DNA of 64,000 nucleotides, taken from positions 1 through 64,000 of the forward strand of contig NZ_CANBCA010000003.1 of assembly GCF_947367035.1 (NCBI RefSeq). The letters are read 5' to 3'. The first letter of the stretch is position 1, and each line of letters opens with the position of its first letter. The stretch is from an uncultured Helicobacter sp. (lineage in GTDB: Bacteria; Campylobacterota; Campylobacteria; Campylobacterales; Helicobacteraceae). Shown in pieces: positions 2-34,827 of this stretch. Below the pieces are notes generated by a model, which was not told the DNA's origin, ran no database searches, and saw only the letters and a list, made by a program, of their open reading frames with translations. The position numbers and the translations under genes are program-made.

Positions 2-97
2 AGTAAGTTTTGGTATAAAGGAGGATATTTAAAATTAATCCAAGAAATTAAACAAAGGAATCCAAAGGTTGTAATAAGCAGAATCTCTAGCAGTTAA
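2..97 (+). CDS. C-terminal tail of an unidentified protein (5' end outside window)
   Basis: An open frame runs from the left edge to a TAA at 95-97 and gives 31 residues that end in VVISRISSS. It is lysine-rich and includes aromatic residues (KFWYKGGY). The frame is open from base 2, and the segment lies directly upstream of the rnpB promoter, so it is probably the end of a real gene. The fragment is too short to assign a family. Confidence is moderate that it is coding and nil for function. Confidence 0.45.
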   Translation, partial: SKFWYKGGYLKLIQEIKQRNPKVVISRISSS

Positions 98-120
98 AAA
101 TCTTTTTATCCCACTTTTGC

Positions 121-126
121 TACAAT
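121..126 (+). promoter_or_regulatory. Extended -10 promoter of rnpB
   Basis: TACAAT preceded by TTTGC gives the extended -10 form TTGCTACAAT seen at several genes in this window (hypB, and the nap and M48 genes with TATAAT). The predicted transcription start, near 133, coincides with the folded 5' end of the RNase P RNA at about 135. No -35 box is evident, as is usual for sigma-70 promoters in Campylobacterales. Confidence 0.6.
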
Positions 127-134
127 TACAACTT

Positions 135-456
135 AGGTGTAGTAAGTGGTTGCTCTATTTTTGAGAGGAAAGTCCGAGCTGCATTGGGATAGGATTCCAT
201 TTAAAGAATGGCTAGAGCAATCTAAGGGAAAGCGCAACAGAAAACAAACCGCCACCTTATAAACTTCGTGGCAAGGGTGAAAAGGTAGGGTAAGAGCCTA
301 CCGAAAGTGTAGCAATACACTTTGCTTTGCAAGCCCAATCCGCAGCAAGAAAGGTATGGTTAATATCCCAAATTTGAATCTTTCGCTAGAGTTTTGCTGC
401 AAGGCAAAATCCAGATAAATAACCACATAAACAGAACTCGGCTTACCGCTACGCCT
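135..456 (+). ncRNA. rnpB: RNase P RNA (catalytic subunit)
   Basis: This is the RNA component of ribonuclease P, which matures the 5' ends of tRNAs. The conserved bacterial blocks are present in order: GAGGAAAGTCCGAGCT near 164-180, ACAGAAA near 237-243, AACCGCCACC near 247, GGGTAAGAGCCTACCG near 288, and CAGATAAATAACCACATAAA near 413 before AGAACTCGGCTTAC. The ends close into a P1 helix: 135-146 pairs with 442-456 apart from a two-base bulge. The length of about 322 nt fits a compact type A RNA of this class. hypE begins only 21 bases downstream. The exact ends are inferred from pairing. Confidence 0.93.
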
Positions 457-477
457 AATGACTACCAAAGGAACTTT

Positions 478-1494
478 ATGCACATTTCAGATTCTATTTT
501 ACTTAGTTATGGAAGCGGTGGTATAGAATCGCAAAGCCTTATTACAGAGCTTTTTTATCCACTTTTAGAGGGTTGTGTGATAAGCAGTGGAGAGGACGCG
601 GGAATTGGGATTTTGAAAAACTCCGATAAATTCGCCCTTAGCACTGATGGTTATATCGTCTCTCCTTTGTTTTTTGCCGGGGGAGATATTGGCAAACTCT
701 GCGTGTGTGGAAGTTGTAATGATGTCGCAATGATGGGCGCAAAAGCGCGTTATTTAAGTGCAAGCTTTATGATTGAAGAGGGATTCTTAATGAGTGATTT
801 AAAATGTATTGTAGAATCCTTTGCCAAAACTCTGCGACAAAGTGGCGCAAAACTCCTCTCTGCAGACACTAAAGTACTTCCTAGAGGAACTTTAGATAAG
901 CTATTTATTACCACGACTGCATTAGGAGAGTTTTGTTACCCCCATTTAAACTTAAGTGCATTTAAGATTCCGCAAGATTGTGCAGTTTTGGTAAGTGGAA
1001 ACATCGGTACACACGGCGCAGTGATTTATTCTAGTCGTGAGGAAATTGGATTACAAAGTGATTTACAAAGTGATTGCACCTTGCTTTATTCTATTTTAGA
1101 ACCAATCTTTCAGGCAAAACTCAAGCTTTATGCCTTGCGTGATGCCACAAGAGGTGGAATTGCAAGCGTGTTAAATGAATGGGCAAATGCTTCAAAAATT
1201 GGCATAGAGATTGACGAGGCACTTTTACCAATTCTCCCACAAGTGCGTGGAATCTGTGAATTGTTAGGATTTGAAGCTTACAATTTGGCAAACGAGGGAA
1301 TGTGTGTGCTATGTATTGCCAAAGAAGACGCAGGGGAAGCTTTAGAAATTCTACACTCCTCTGGTGCAACCAACGCTACACTCATTGGCTATACTACTTC
1401 AGAGAATGCGACAAAGGTTGTGTTAAAAACCCCTTTTGGCGCAAGGCGATTTTTGGATTACCCAAGCGGAGAATTGCTACCTAGAATCTGTTAG
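478..1494 (+). CDS. hypE: Hydrogenase maturation protein HypE (carbamoyl dehydratase)
   Basis: HypE works with HypF to dehydrate a carbamoyl group carried on its C-terminal cysteine, making the thiocyanate used for the CN ligands of [NiFe]-hydrogenase. The 338-residue product has the PurM-like AIRS fold: an N-terminal LLSYGSGGIESQ motif, a middle segment with NDVAMMGA (ATP site), a C-terminal AIRS domain with RDATRGGIASVLNE, and the diagnostic PRIC ending with the acceptor cysteine last. I chose ATG 478 because AAGGA lies just upstream. The longer frame from 394 would begin inside rnpB. hypA, hypD and hypF are not in the window. Confidence 0.95.
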   Translation: MHISDSILLSYGSGGIESQSLITELFYPLLEGCVISSGEDAGIGILKNSDKFALSTDGYIVSPLFFAGGDIGKLCVCGSCNDVAMMGAKARYLSASFMIEEGFLMSDLKCIVESFAKTLRQSGAKLLSADTKVLPRGTLDKLFITTTALGEFCYPHLNLSAFKIPQDCAVLVSGNIGTHGAVIYSSREEIGLQSDLQSDCTLLYSILEPIFQAKLKLYALRDATRGGIASVLNEWANASKIGIEIDEALLPILPQVRGICELLGFEAYNLANEGMCVLCIAKEDAGEALEILHSSGATNATLIGYTTSENATKVVLKTPFGARRFLDYPSGELLPRIC

Positions 1495-1497
1495 GAT

Positions 1498-1702
1498 TCA
1501 TAGTTTAGTCTTTATGCCACTCAACCCACCTACTCGCTTGCTAGATTCTATGTTATGAATCGCCACGAAAATTTTTTAATTTCTCTCAATGATGCAACGA
1601 TTAAATCCCAATCATTGCAAATCACACGAAGCAATCCATAATCCAAAAAATAACAAATCACAGACGATTGAATCTTATTTCAAAGATTCTACAAAGCACG
1701 AC
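1498..1702. repeat. Noncoding gap with possible degenerate dispersed repeat
   Basis: This 205-base gap lies between the convergent hypE and moeA genes and has no plausible gene. It holds an imperfect hairpin (1594-1602 with 1610-1618) and a segment, ATCATTGCAAATCACACGAA, running into GCAATCC at about 1611-1637. That segment resembles the intergenic repeat family with a CATTGCGAG...GAAGCAATCC core known from several bacterial genomes. The resemblance is from memory and only one copy is visible here. The pentamer GAATC/GATTC occurs about five times in or at the edges of this gap. Confidence 0.3.
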
Positions 1703-2929
1703 TTACAATAAAACTACTTGCACAATCTCACCAGCTTTTTTGGCACAATCTAGCACACACAATCCATTATGCACAGAATCTAGTGGGCAAAAGTTGTTTA
1801 AAATCGCACTTTGAAAGTTTTTTTTGCCCTTAAAGTCTATACTCCATTTACCCTTGATATTGCGCACATTACACACGCGAAATTCCAAGCGAGAATCTGT
1901 TTTACTAACATTTTCTTGCAATGGAATCTCCAAAGTAATCGGCTTAAAATGCGTTCCATTCAAACGCCACAAAATCCCTTTTGCAAAAAGTTCAAAAGTT
2001 ACCAATGTAGAATTTGGAAAACCGGGCAGACCAAAAAACTGCTTACCCTCAAAATGTGCATAGAGTATGTGCTGTCCGGGCTTAATTTTTACCCCTTTAA
2101 ACACAATTTCACTTACGTGTTCTTCACAAAATTTTGCAATGAAGTCGTAATCCCCCACGCTTGCCCCTCCACTACTAATGACCAAATCACATTCACTAAG
2201 AGCTAAATGGATATATTTTTCTACTTCTTTTTTATCGTCTTTTAAAATCGGGTAGAGTTTTGGAATCCCACCATTTTCTAATACCTTTGCAAAAAGCAAA
2301 TGTCCATTGGCATTATAGGTATTCGCTCCTTTTTTAGCATTTTCTCCTAACTCTAAAACTTCATTACCACTGACTAAAATCCCAACTTTTGCGCACTCAA
2401 ATACTTCCACAAATACATAATTTAAACTCGCCAAAAGCCCGATATGATTTGCATTAAGTCGCATTCCTTTGGATAAAAGTTTCTCTCCTTTTTGATAATT
2501 TGCTCCTTTTTGGCAGATAAATTCTCCTGCCTTTGGAATCTCTAAAAGGTGCAAGGTTTGAGATTCTACCCTTACCTGCTCTAATGGTACCAATGTATCT
2601 GCATTTTGCGGAATTTTTGCACCTGTGAAAGTTTTAATTGCATAGGGCTGATGAAGTGGCAAGATTAAATCTTGCGCATTGCCTGCTGGATTCTCTCCCA
2701 AGATAGTGAAGCATTGTTCTTTGGAGTTTTTCTTTAAAAACTTAGAATGGATTGCATATCCGTCCATATTGGAGTATGGGGATTGTGGCATATCTTGCAT
2801 TGCGACTATATCATATGCGAGAACGCGTCCTAAAGCTTGATGCAAGAAGACACGTTCTACGCCCAAAATCATAGTTTTTTGAGATTCTAAAATTGCTTTG
2901 GCTTCTTGATAATCAATTTTAATTTGCAT
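1703..2929 (-). CDS. moeA: Molybdopterin molybdotransferase MoeA
   Basis: MoeA inserts molybdate into adenylated molybdopterin in the last steps of molybdenum cofactor synthesis. The 408-residue length is typical. The N-terminal MoeA domain contains PQSPYSNMDGYAI near residue 50. The central MoCF-binding domain carries VISSGGASVGDYDF near 250-265 and the GLPGFPNS motif near 317. A short C-terminal beta domain follows. It sits 8 bases downstream of ribA on the same strand, probably as one transcript. The product would serve NapA, the molybdoenzyme encoded at 26.8-29.6 kb. Confidence 0.95.
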   Translation of the reverse strand: MQIKIDYQEAKAILESQKTMILGVERVFLHQALGRVLAYDIVAMQDMPQSPYSNMDGYAIHSKFLKKNSKEQCFTILGENPAGNAQDLILPLHQPYAIKTFTGAKIPQNADTLVPLEQVRVESQTLHLLEIPKAGEFICQKGANYQKGEKLLSKGMRLNANHIGLLASLNYVFVEVFECAKVGILVSGNEVLELGENAKKGANTYNANGHLLFAKVLENGGIPKLYPILKDDKKEVEKYIHLALSECDLVISSGGASVGDYDFIAKFCEEHVSEIVFKGVKIKPGQHILYAHFEGKQFFGLPGFPNSTLVTFELFAKGILWRLNGTHFKPITLEIPLQENVSKTDSRLEFRVCNVRNIKGKWSIDFKGKKNFQSAILNNFCPLDSVHNGLCVLDCAKKAGEIVQVVLL

Positions 2930-2937
2930 ATTTTTCC

Positions 2938-3522
2938 TTAAAGCAAATGTCCCATTTGGGTCTTCTTTACTTCCAAATAATGTGCATTATGGATATTACA
3001 TTGCACGATAATCGGCTCACGCGTGAGTGCAATCATTGTTTCAAAAGCACGAATTTTCGCTGGATTATTTGTGAGTAAGCGGATTTTGTGCAATTTATAA
3101 TAATCAAAAATAAATTTTACGATTCTATAATCTCGCTCGTCTTCTTTGAATCCCAAAGCAAGATTTGCTTCAATCGTATCTAAACCTTTATCTTGCAAAG
3201 CATACGCATTAACTTTGTTAAAAAGCCCGATTCCTCGCCCTTCTTGACGCAGATAAATCAACATTCCTTGCTCTTTTGCGATTCTTGATAATGCAAGGTT
3301 TAACTCGCCACCACAATCACATTTAAGGCTTAAAAGGGTATCTCCTGTTAAACATTCAGAATGCACACGCACAAGCGGATTCTCTGGAATATCAAATGTT
3401 TTAATCACTAAATGTTCTAAAAGATAAGTTTCTCCTTTGAAAGATTTTTTTTCTCTAAAAGCCTGAATTTTAAAATCTCCAAATTGTGTTGGGAGATTTG
3501 CTTGTTCTGAAATTTCTATCAT
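2938..3522 (-). CDS. ribA: GTP cyclohydrolase II
   Basis: This enzyme opens GTP to a diaminopyrimidine in the first committed step of riboflavin synthesis. The 194-residue protein has the zinc motif C-x10-C-x-C (ECLTGD...KCDCGG, near residues 57-70), the substrate loop RQEGRGIGL near 92-100 and the C-terminal LTNNPAKI block near 150. It is a stand-alone RibA with no DHBP synthase domain fused. It is the first gene of a leftward pair with moeA and is divergent from hypBC. Confidence 0.95.
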
Positions 3523-3618
3523 TTCAATTCTCTCTTAAAATTTTGTTTTAAAAACTAACAATATAACCAATTTGCAGTAAGAAGTGGTTTAAGATTTCAA
3601 ATTTCACTTTTATTTGAG

Positions 3619-3635
3619 AGCAAATTTGCTACAAT
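3619..3635 (+). promoter_or_regulatory. hypBC promoter with overlapping palindrome
   Basis: TTTGCTACAAT gives an extended -10 at 3630-3635, 24 bases before the HypB start codon. The perfect 12-base palindrome AGCAAATTTGCT (3619-3630) abuts and shares one base with the -10, which is a good place for a repressor to block RNA polymerase. The bound factor is unknown. It does not match the H. pylori NikR consensus that I recall (TATTATT and AATAATA separated by 11 bases). Confidence 0.45.
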
Positions 3636-3658
3636 GCTCTAAAAATAAAAGGTTATCA

Positions 3659-4357
3659 ATGGAAATGGAATCTCAAAAAAACATAAAAAATATTGAAATA
3701 GGACAAAGGATTCTATCTAAAAATGATAAAATTGCGGAGGAATTACGCAAAACTTATGCAAAAGAAAATCTATTTGTCATTAATCTGATGAGTTCTCCTG
3801 GTAGTGGCAAAACCACATTGCTAGAAAATATTGCTAAACACGAATTGCTAGATTTCAGTGTAGTAGAAGGGGATTTACAAACTAATCGTGATGCAGAACG
3901 CTTAAGTGCTTTTGGAATTAGCGCGTATCAGATTACTACAGGAGATGCGTGCCATTTGGAAGCAGCAATGGTGCAAGACGCATTAAAAAAATTGCATTCC
4001 CAAGGAAAATTAAAAGATTTTATGTTTATAGAAAATGTTGGTAATCTTGTTTGTCCTGCAAGTTATGATTTAGGAGCAAATATGAATATTGTTTTGCTCT
4101 CTACACCAGAGGGTGATGACAAAGTGCTAAAATATCCTACAATATTCCTATGTGCTGATGCAGTCATTATTTCCAAAGCAGACTTGATAGAAGTCTTTGA
4201 CTTTGAGGTTTCACAAGTGAAAGAAGATTTAAAAAAACTCAAAAAGGAGATTCCATTGTTTCTCATTTCTTCTAAAGATAAAGAATCTCAAAGTAAATTC
4301 TGCGCATTCCTACAACAAAACAAGGAGAAAAACTATGTGTCTAGCCATACCTTCTAA
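3659..4357 (+). CDS. hypB: Hydrogenase/urease nickel incorporation GTPase HypB
   Basis: HypB is a dimeric GTPase that, with HypA, delivers nickel to the [NiFe]-hydrogenase large subunit; in Helicobacter relatives it also helps urease. Of 232 residues, SSPGSGKTT (about 45-53) is the P-loop. GDACHLEA carries the adjacent Cys-His pair that binds metal at the dimer interface. VISKADLIE is the G4-type NKxD equivalent. It lacks the histidine-rich N-terminal stretch of nickel-storing HypBs. ATG 3659 follows AAGG and the -10; the ORF start at 3614 would lie upstream of the promoter. It overlaps hypC by 23 bases. Confidence 0.95.
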   Translation: MEMESQKNIKNIEIGQRILSKNDKIAEELRKTYAKENLFVINLMSSPGSGKTTLLENIAKHELLDFSVVEGDLQTNRDAERLSAFGISAYQITTGDACHLEAAMVQDALKKLHSQGKLKDFMFIENVGNLVCPASYDLGANMNIVLLSTPEGDDKVLKYPTIFLCADAVIISKADLIEVFDFEVSQVKEDLKKLKKEIPLFLISSKDKESQSKFCAFLQQNKEKNYVSSHTF

Positions 4358-4604
4358 AATCATTGCGATTAATACAACAGATAATACAGCCACTCTTGAT
4401 ACTTTGGGTGTAATGCGTGAAGCAAGCCTAGATTTAATGAATGATGAAGTCAATGTTGGCGATTATGTACTATTGCATATTGGCTATGTAATGGGCAAAA
4501 TTGATGAAGAGCAAGCTAAACTCTCACTAGAAACCTACGCAGAAATCATTAAAACACTTGAGGAAGAGGAGATAGAGCTGAAAGAATCCTCCTCATTATT
4601 ATAA
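4335..4604 (+). CDS. hypC: Hydrogenase assembly chaperone HypC/HupF
   Basis: HypC is a small chaperone that carries the Fe(CN)2CO group with HypD and transfers it to the hydrogenase large subunit. It has 89 residues and starts MCLAIPSKI, the family signature, with the catalytic Cys2 exposed after Met removal. The body is an OB-like beta barrel with an acidic tail (LEEEEIELKESS). The start lies inside the end of hypB after AAGGAG, so the two are translationally coupled. Its usual partner hypD does not follow; the next gene is a convergent chemoreceptor. Confidence 0.95.
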   Translation: MCLAIPSKIIAINTTDNTATLDTLGVMREASLDLMNDEVNVGDYVLLHIGYVMGKIDEEQAKLSLETYAEIIKTLEEEEIELKESSSLL

Positions 4605-4638
4605 ATATGAGAAAGACTTTTGCCCTTTGAGAAAAGAA

Positions 4639-5730
4639 TTATGCCAAAGTAGCTAACTTTTCCTCTGCTAATCCATCTAAATATTTCACAACCTCATCAC
4701 TTGCCAATTCAGCCTCTTGGAAATATTTATAGATTTCCTCTAAGCAACCCTCTGTGCTTCCATTTTGTTTCATTATTGCATATCCATTGATAATATTGTC
4801 ATGCACTCCTTGATGTGGTGCTTCAATTTTCGGATAACTTGCATATTGTGAGAAGAGTTGTTTGCCTGTGCCTGTATCATACCATTTACCTAAACGACAA
4901 TCGTGATGTCCTGCAAATTTTGCTTCCATATCTTCGTTGAAAATTGCTTTGTAACCATTGATTTTAAAGAATAAATGGTCTAGCTTTATCAAACCAACAA
5001 AAGTAATCGTTAGTATTTTGTCTGTATCATTATAAATTTGGTCAGCGGATTGATTAATATGTTCTAAAGTCTCATTTTGCGTTCCTAATTGTTCCATTTC
5101 TCTAATAATTTCATCAGAAGAAGTTTGCACTTCAGAGAAATTTTGCTGAACAACTTGGATATTCATTTCAATTTCTTTTGTTGCCTTTTGCGTTCTTTCT
5201 GCTAGCTTGCGCACTTCATCAGCTACGACCGCAAAACCTCTTCCGTGTTCTCCAGCACGGGCTGCTTCAATCGCAGCGTTGAGTGCAAGCAAGTTAGTTT
5301 GGTCAGAAATATCTGTGATCAATGCAATCACACTTGAAATGGCGTTAAAATCATTTTGCACTTGTGTAATCATATTATTAAACTCAGAAAGTTTTGCAGT
5401 CATAGTAGAGAGACCTTCTGCTAAAACATTTTGAATTTCAGTGGAGTTTTTCTTATTAGATTCCGCAATAGATTTTGCAGATCTTAGTAAATCTACCGTC
5501 TTGCTAAAATCATCTTGAAGTATTTTTAAATTTTTACCACAACCTCCTACAAGGGATAAAGTCATATCTTTGAAAGCCCCAACAGAATTTGATGTATCCT
5601 GCTCTGGGACTGCTTGGACTTTTGCTTCTAACTTCTCATTATGTCCCTTTAGCTCTTGAATCTTTGCTTTTAAAAGCTTATTTTCTTCTAGTGCGCGGTG
5701 TAATTGTTCTTTATATTGACTCCCAAACAT
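4639..5730 (-). CDS. Cytosolic methyl-accepting chemotaxis protein with CZB domain (TlpD-like)
   Basis: This chemoreceptor has no membrane segment, like H. pylori TlpD, which mediates tactic responses to oxidative and energy stress. The 363 residues run as an N-terminal coiled coil (1-45), the MCP signalling hairpin with the conserved core [20 protein letters not shown] near 155-175 that engages CheA/CheW, and a C-terminal chemoreceptor zinc-binding domain (about 255-345). The CZB ligands are visible: an early His, [10 protein letters not shown], then H in APHQGVHD. It is about 70 residues shorter than I recall for TlpD. GGAGGAA precedes the ATG. A pentanucleotide repeat lies in the putative promoter. 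Confidence 0.88.
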
Positions 5731-7575: not shown

Positions 7576-7593
7576 TTGGAATAAAATTTGCTT
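7576..7593 (+). promoter_or_regulatory. Sigma-54 (RpoN) -24/-12 promoter
   Basis: TTGGAATAAAATTTGCTT fits the -24/-12 pattern: GG at 7578-7579 and GC at 7590-7591, separated by exactly ten bases, within TTGGAA-N6-TTGCTT, the form found at H. pylori flagellar promoters such as flaB. The predicted start near 7603 leaves a leader of about 26 bases to the ATG at 7629, with AAGGA in the right place. Confidence 0.82.
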
Positions 7594-7628
7594 ATTTATT
7601 TGCATTAAACTTTTAATAAGGATAAAAA

Positions 7629-8132
7629 ATGAATGTTAATGACAAAAATAGCTCAATGTGGAATCTACTTAAGGAATCCTACACGCAGCGAAACACGCAA
7701 TCTAACAACATTTCAGGTTATTCCAATAATTCTAATTCCATTTTCAATACGCAAAACCAACAAGGCGTGAATGGAATCTCTAGTTTGTTTGATTTAGGTT
7801 CTGATACCACAACTACAAATACAGAGATTCGAGATTCATTTGAAATCAGCTCGGAGCTTTCTAAACTTCAAGACTTTGCTGAAGACTTTAGTCAAAACTT
7901 CACAAAAAACCTTGAAAGTTTGGAAAATCTAGGCAATGCAATGCAGCAAAGTGGAATCCTAAGTAAAGAAGAAAAAATTGGTTTTGATGTATTATACAAA
8001 TTCAACCCAAAACTTGATTCTGCGCAAACACAAAATATCTTACAAAATACCAATTTAAGCAAAGAAAATGCCAACTTATTAAGCCAAGTGGAGAGAAAAA
8101 TTAGTGCAGTAAGGTATTTTGGCAATTTTTAA
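7629..8132 (+). CDS. Conserved-type small protein of unknown function, RpoN promoter
   Basis: I do not recognise a family. The 167 residues fall in two parts. An Asn/Ser/Thr/Gln-rich, probably disordered N-terminal third runs to about residue 65. A mainly helical remainder includes SSELSKLQDFAEDFSQNF and a C-terminal NANLLSQVERKISAVRYFGNF. There is no signal peptide, membrane segment or cysteine. The start follows AAGGATAAAAA. The near-ideal sigma-54 promoter 36 bases upstream of the start codon places it, by inference, in the flagellar regulon. It could be a secreted flagellar component, an export chaperone or a regulator; the sequence does not decide. Confidence 0.75.
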   Translation: MNVNDKNSSMWNLLKESYTQRNTQSNNISGYSNNSNSIFNTQNQQGVNGISSLFDLGSDTTTTNTEIRDSFEISSELSKLQDFAEDFSQNFTKNLESLENLGNAMQQSGILSKEEKIGFDVLYKFNPKLDSAQTQNILQNTNLSKENANLLSQVERKISAVRYFGNF

Positions 8133-34809: not shown

Positions 34810-34827
34810 TTGGAATGAGCTTTGCTT
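34810..34827 (+). promoter_or_regulatory. Sigma-54 (RpoN) promoter of flgH
   Basis: TTGGAATGAGCTTTGCTT carries GG (34812-34813) and GC (34824-34825) exactly ten bases apart, within TTGGAA-N6-TTGCTT, the same form as the site at 7576. The predicted start near 34837 gives a leader of about 41 bases to the flgH ATG. RpoN control of rod and ring genes is established in Campylobacter. Confidence 0.78.

Follow-up and report, generated by a model that had tools for sequence, protein, structure and literature searches.

A cysteine-free protein family of Helicobacteraceae with a conserved sigma-54-type promoter as a candidate accessory of the flagellar regulon

The window analyzed here is the whole 64,000-nucleotide stretch of DNA from an uncultured Helicobacter sp. 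(contig NZ_CANBCA010000003.1, positions 1 to 64,000), and near its beginning lies a gene of 167 codons, named the 7629 gene after its first base, with the following features.

7576..7593, plus strand: sigma-54 (RpoN) -24/-12 promoter, TTGGAATAAAATTTGCTT, of the GG-N10-GC type, assigned from sequence and conservation
7618..7623, plus strand: ribosome-binding site AAGGAT, assigned from sequence
7629..8132, plus strand: gene for a 167-amino-acid protein without cysteine, founder of a Helicobacteraceae-specific family
7659..7682, plus strand: N-terminal motif L-L-x3-Y, residues 11-18, from the family alignment
7683..7841, plus strand: disordered Asn/Ser/Thr/Gln-rich linker, residues 19-71, from AlphaFold2, alignment, and composition
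7842..8129, plus strand: helical C-terminal domain, residues 72-167, the conserved part of the family

The promoter site has the form TTGGAA-N6-TTGCTT, with its GG (7578-7579) and GC (7590-7591) separated by ten bases, and leaves a gap of 35 bases to the ATG at 7629, confirming the near-ideal RpoN site proposed in the first-pass annotation. From the position of this site, transcription is expected to start at about 7602-7603; AAGGAT is a good ribosome-binding site just upstream of the ATG. With both neighboring genes encoded on the minus strand, the 7629 gene is apparently monocistronic; a simple scan found no terminator for it. The window has four matches to TTGGNAN6TTGCWT, compared to 0.38 expected from shuffles. 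Two of the matches (8057 on the minus strand and 24929 on the plus strand) are intragenic and look like chance occurrences, and the match at 34810 sits upstream of flgH.

The 110 bases upstream of the start codon were scanned in 47 homologues. GG-N8-TTGCTT is found upstream of 44 of them and TTGGMAN6TTGCWT with at most one mismatch upstream of 39, compared to 0.4% and 0.5% of shuffled upstream regions, respectively; related species are not independent, and these percentages measure the chance rarity of the element and not a combined probability. The site is conserved across eight genera, mostly 27 to 50 bases upstream of the start codon, and is retained while the neighboring genes of the homologues vary between genera. 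Among 17 congeneric species, conservation is confined to the GGAA and TTGCTT blocks and does not extend to the flanking DNA. In genus g5, the sites read TAGGAAT-N5-TTGCTT, a form that a TGG-N10-GC pattern misses, and the element is kept there as well. Sequence comparison ties the predicted sigma-54 promoter to this gene throughout the family. A chance match is very improbable: scaling the window shuffles up to the genome gives about 10 expected matches to a looser pattern, and several matches do sit within genes, but the recurrence of the site at this distance in nearly all homologues, and its conserved core between unconserved flanks, argue against it. As to gene neighborhoods, the homologue adjoins a flavin-reductase-like gene in several genera (L039, L042, L051, L057, L058, L060, and L067; g8 and g10), and at L039 it adjoins a gene resembling rpoN itself, named by eye.

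On the comparative evidence, the open reading frame (ORF) is a real gene under purifying selection, with a dN/dS of ~0.10 against Helicobacter rodentium; the body has the lower value, and the head is fast evolving. Of the 121 Helicobacteraceae genomes searched, 65 carry a homologue, essentially in single copy; with the family profile, these span 8 of 13 genera. Carriers with a species label are H. rodentium, Helicobacter sp. MIT 05-5294, and H. turcicus. In 399 genomes of the order, the same profile gave just two matches outside Helicobacteraceae, both marginal and either short or interrupted by stops. Whether queried with the protein or with its 47-member family, Pfam, NCBIfam, and PDB sequences returned scattered subthreshold matches only, and the earlier statement that the protein has no recognized family holds for Pfam and NCBIfam, which offer none that fits.

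How does the distribution of the gene relate to that of flagella? All 65 carriers have flgH, but so do 119 of the 121 genomes, and the presence of flagella therefore does not discriminate carriers; the only near-complete genome without flgH (G100) also lacks the gene. No carriers were found among the genomes of genera g2, g7, g11, g12, and g13 or among isolated members of other genera. Genus g2 is inferred to be the H. pylori-type gastric genus, judging by its gene content, its number of species, and the size of its genomes. In the FlgH tree, it falls inside a well-supported group containing carriers (100/98), which makes loss the simpler reading for g2, and the absence of the gene from the gastric genus is apparently due to loss. 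The homologue may instead have diverged beyond recognition in g2; a displaced copy beside atpB, where g8 carries the gene, was searched for in g2 and none was found. Since flagellar genes occur without the 7629 gene in the gastric genus and in some other lineages, the product of this gene would be dispensable for the flagellum as such.

The first-pass annotation had described the protein as a disordered Asn/Ser-rich head followed by a helical body, and composition and structure prediction agree with this. N, S, T, and Q make up 58% of residues 1-65, compared to a window mean of 20%, and the AlphaFold2 model, built on four close sequences, has a pLDDT below 50 for residues 17-71 and of ~80 for residues 72-167. 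Tyr18 of the L-L-x3-Y motif is present in 91% of homologues; the linker that follows is unconserved and differs in length among species. Helices are predicted at residues ~60-92, 98-107, 113-123, 131-140, and 145-165. In the conserved C-terminal domain, Asp69 is invariant and Ser74, Glu146, Leu150, and Lys157 are nearly so. Foldseek searches with the four-sequence model gave nothing significant (best E value, 2.8), and the best VIA-align match, a chorismate mutase domain (Z score of 5.5; rmsd of 6.8 over 83 residues), is within chance for helical proteins. As modeled, the C-terminal helical domain appears to be without a recognized fold.

Not one cysteine occurs in the 7,558 residues of the family in 47 species, compared to an average of 1.56% in the proteins of the window. 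The rod proteins FlgB, FlgC, FliE, and FlgF/G of the same genome are likewise cysteine-free. Cysteine-free proteins are not rare, given that 4 of the 22 window ORFs of 120 to 260 amino acids belong to this kind; FlgE and FlgK of the same genome contain cysteine, and HP1076 has none in the host's own genus. For these reasons, the cysteine argument rests on conservation across genera.

Could the protein be one of the known small flagellar factors? FlgJ, FliK, FlgM, and HP1076 had been put forward as candidates, and all four fell away, since each is encoded by a separate gene and profile searches gave the 7629 protein no match to any of them. The rod-binding domain of FlgJ (PF10135) is absent from the Pfam matches of the 7629 protein and from those listed for the 47 members, and the FlgJ gene itself is at L010:2657-2980, behind flgI. 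The only Flg_hook (PF02120) gene found, that of FliK, is at G000:C25:21621-21854, FlgM (PF04316), followed by the FlgN-like gene and flgK, is at L016:1498-1740, and HP1076 (PF16522) is at G000:C1:137681-138031, with an hhalign probability of 0.5% between its family and that of the 7629 protein. FlgJ, FlgM, and FliK, which serve in flagellar export or assembly, resemble the 7629 protein in having disordered parts, but each has its own gene and the 7629 protein has no family match. FliE also has its own gene in the genome. For FlaG (PF03646), the 7629 protein has no Pfam match up to an E value of 10, and the 47 members have none among the matches listed. By sequence, Foldseek, and VIA-align, no homology or fold link of the 7629 protein to any flagellar protein was found.

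The genome offers a more general view of what this type of promoter serves. The pattern TGGMAYN6TGCTT has 32 sites in it, compared to 1 in a reversed control. Where a site lies ~30 to 60 bases ahead of a start codon that has a ribosome-binding site, the genes downstream are mostly flagellar, chiefly for the hook-basal body, the hook-filament junction, and the minor flagellin: HP1076, FlgH, FlgI (then FlgJ), FlgE, FlgF/G, FlgB (then FlgC and FliE), an FlgN-like gene (then FlgK), an FlgL-like gene, the flagellin FlaB, and a short flagellin-like protein; FlgL, FlgN, FlgK, and FlgC were identified by eye and from gene order. The remaining promoter-positioned sites precede the 7629 gene and a few ORFs of no known flagellar role. 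Membership of the 7629 gene in the RpoN/flagellar regulon, which had been proposed from the site in this one genome, receives strong support from the conservation of the site with the gene in eight genera and from the predominance of flagellar genes behind such sites; the gene would be an additional, unassigned member. Regulon membership is not proof of flagellar function, because other genes not annotated as flagellar share the promoter type.

Several of these other genes merit description. A 91-amino-acid, cysteine-free ORF of no known family (L012:1552-1824, L135:973-1245) starts 33 bases behind TTGGCACGCCTTTTGCTT (G000:C6:56421-56438); it is preceded by a secreted-looking protein of 163 amino acids with a GG-type motif and followed by an ORF resembling a C39-type peptidase by eye. 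This ORF of 91 amino acids would be a second sigma-54 target without an assigned role. An ORF of 371 amino acids without a Pfam family (L134:245-1357) lies 29 bases behind TTGGAATAAAATTTGCTT, identical to the window site (G000:C9:13597-13614). FliK was rejected as its identity, as it has no Flg_hook domain and the FliK gene lies elsewhere, on C25. A 269-amino-acid protein carrying a J domain (PF00226) at its C terminus (L190:623-1429) has TGGAATTAGAATTGCTT 71 bases before its start (G000:C3:78022-78038, minus strand), and sigma-54 control of it is possible. Sigma-54-type sites also precede a lipoprotein-like ORF of 107 amino acids without a Pfam family (G000:C13:38985-39001, minus strand; L204:1143-1463) and a 251-amino-acid flagellin-like protein with Flagellin_N and Flagellin_C domains (G000:C5:6029-6045; L191:1568-2320), which also matches the HP1076 family weakly.

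The 7629 protein, kept by most non-gastric Helicobacter species, is probably an accessory of the flagellum, as a part or as a passenger, and its relatives would form a new protein family of the flagellar-regulon accessory type. An axial, exported, or export-assisting role is possible. On balance, we lean toward a lineage-specific member of the flagellar regulon that the flagellar apparatus exports as an accessory substrate. Export is favored because the absence of cysteine is conserved across genera and the head is polar and disordered; the lack of a Sec signal, the disordered polar N terminus, and the lack of cysteine are traits of export substrates that are suggestive but not defining. In such a scheme, RpoN with the flagellar FlgR/FlgS activators would have the protein made at the hook-basal-body stage, and an exported accessory acting at that stage is the most likely form of the proposal. 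The disordered polar head would serve as the flagellar type III export signal, the LLxxxY motif might dock a partner such as the export gate or a chaperone, and the helical C-terminal domain would be the working part, outside the cytoplasm, either as an accessory to rod, hook, or junction assembly or as a coexported passenger. The fuller history, of a flagellum-exported family that is ancestral or early in Helicobacteraceae, kept its sigma-54 promoter in non-gastric lineages, was lost in the gastric one, and acts at the hook or junction or as a secreted non-motility factor, is tentative.

The main rival to export is a cytoplasmic export or assembly factor (a chaperone, cochaperone, or gate regulator) acting like HP1076 or FlgN but unrelated to them in sequence; it would stay in the cell, with its LLxxxY motif or helical domain binding the export gate or a substrate. 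This reading, which we consider rather unlikely, draws on a promoter class common to HP1076 and the FlgN-like gene, on a small, helical protein without a visible signal peptide, and on the common combination of a disordered head and a helical body in cochaperones too. HP1076, a FliS cochaperone in H. pylori, is likewise small, helical, and behind a sigma-54-type site; however, cysteine occurs in most genera of its family (32 in 3,737 residues), in contrast to its complete absence from the 7629 family in 47 species, the FlgN-like protein has one cysteine, and there is no profile match to HP1076.

A passenger exported through the flagellum and acting away from it, by analogy with the Fed/Cia proteins, would be a special case of the export reading, with overlapping probability, and taken by itself is doubtful. 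The absence of the gene from g2 and several other flagellated lineages, so that it is not needed for the flagellum itself, and the fast evolution of the head are consistent with it. Secreted non-motility proteins have a precedent in Fed/Cia of C. jejuni, which are secreted by the flagellum and dispensable for motility (PMC12445086), and deletion of cj0428 and cj1650, predicted sigma-54 targets of C. jejuni, caused no motility defect (PMC4626219). More improbable still is a sigma-54-driven but non-flagellar product that stays in the cell and uses flagellar timing for another purpose. Sites of the same type do front the J-domain protein, the 107-amino-acid lipoprotein-like ORF, and the 91- and 371-amino-acid ORFs, but flagellar genes are the majority behind promoter-positioned sites, and the ORFs lacking a known flagellar role may be flagellar too.

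The flagellum of Helicobacter and Campylobacter has many parts beyond the Escherichia coli plan, found mostly in H. pylori and C. jejuni. The Fed genes are sigma-28 dependent, whereas the 7629 gene has a sigma-54 site, and the likeness of an exported 7629 protein to the Fed proteins would be one of analogy. What Fed/Cia and FlaG of C. jejuni would share with it is coexpression with the flagellum and secretion through it (PMC12445086). Cj0428 and Cj1650 of C. jejuni are likewise small sigma-54-class genes of unknown role (PMC4626219), and the family profile gave no convincing relative in the sampled members of the order outside Helicobacteraceae. Neither model organism reveals the family: it is missing from the H. 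pylori-type genus, and the search outside Helicobacteraceae turned up no convincing relative. Being single-copy, conserved in its promoter, and under purifying selection, it is a candidate flagellar part or flagellum-secreted protein specific to non-gastric helicobacters.
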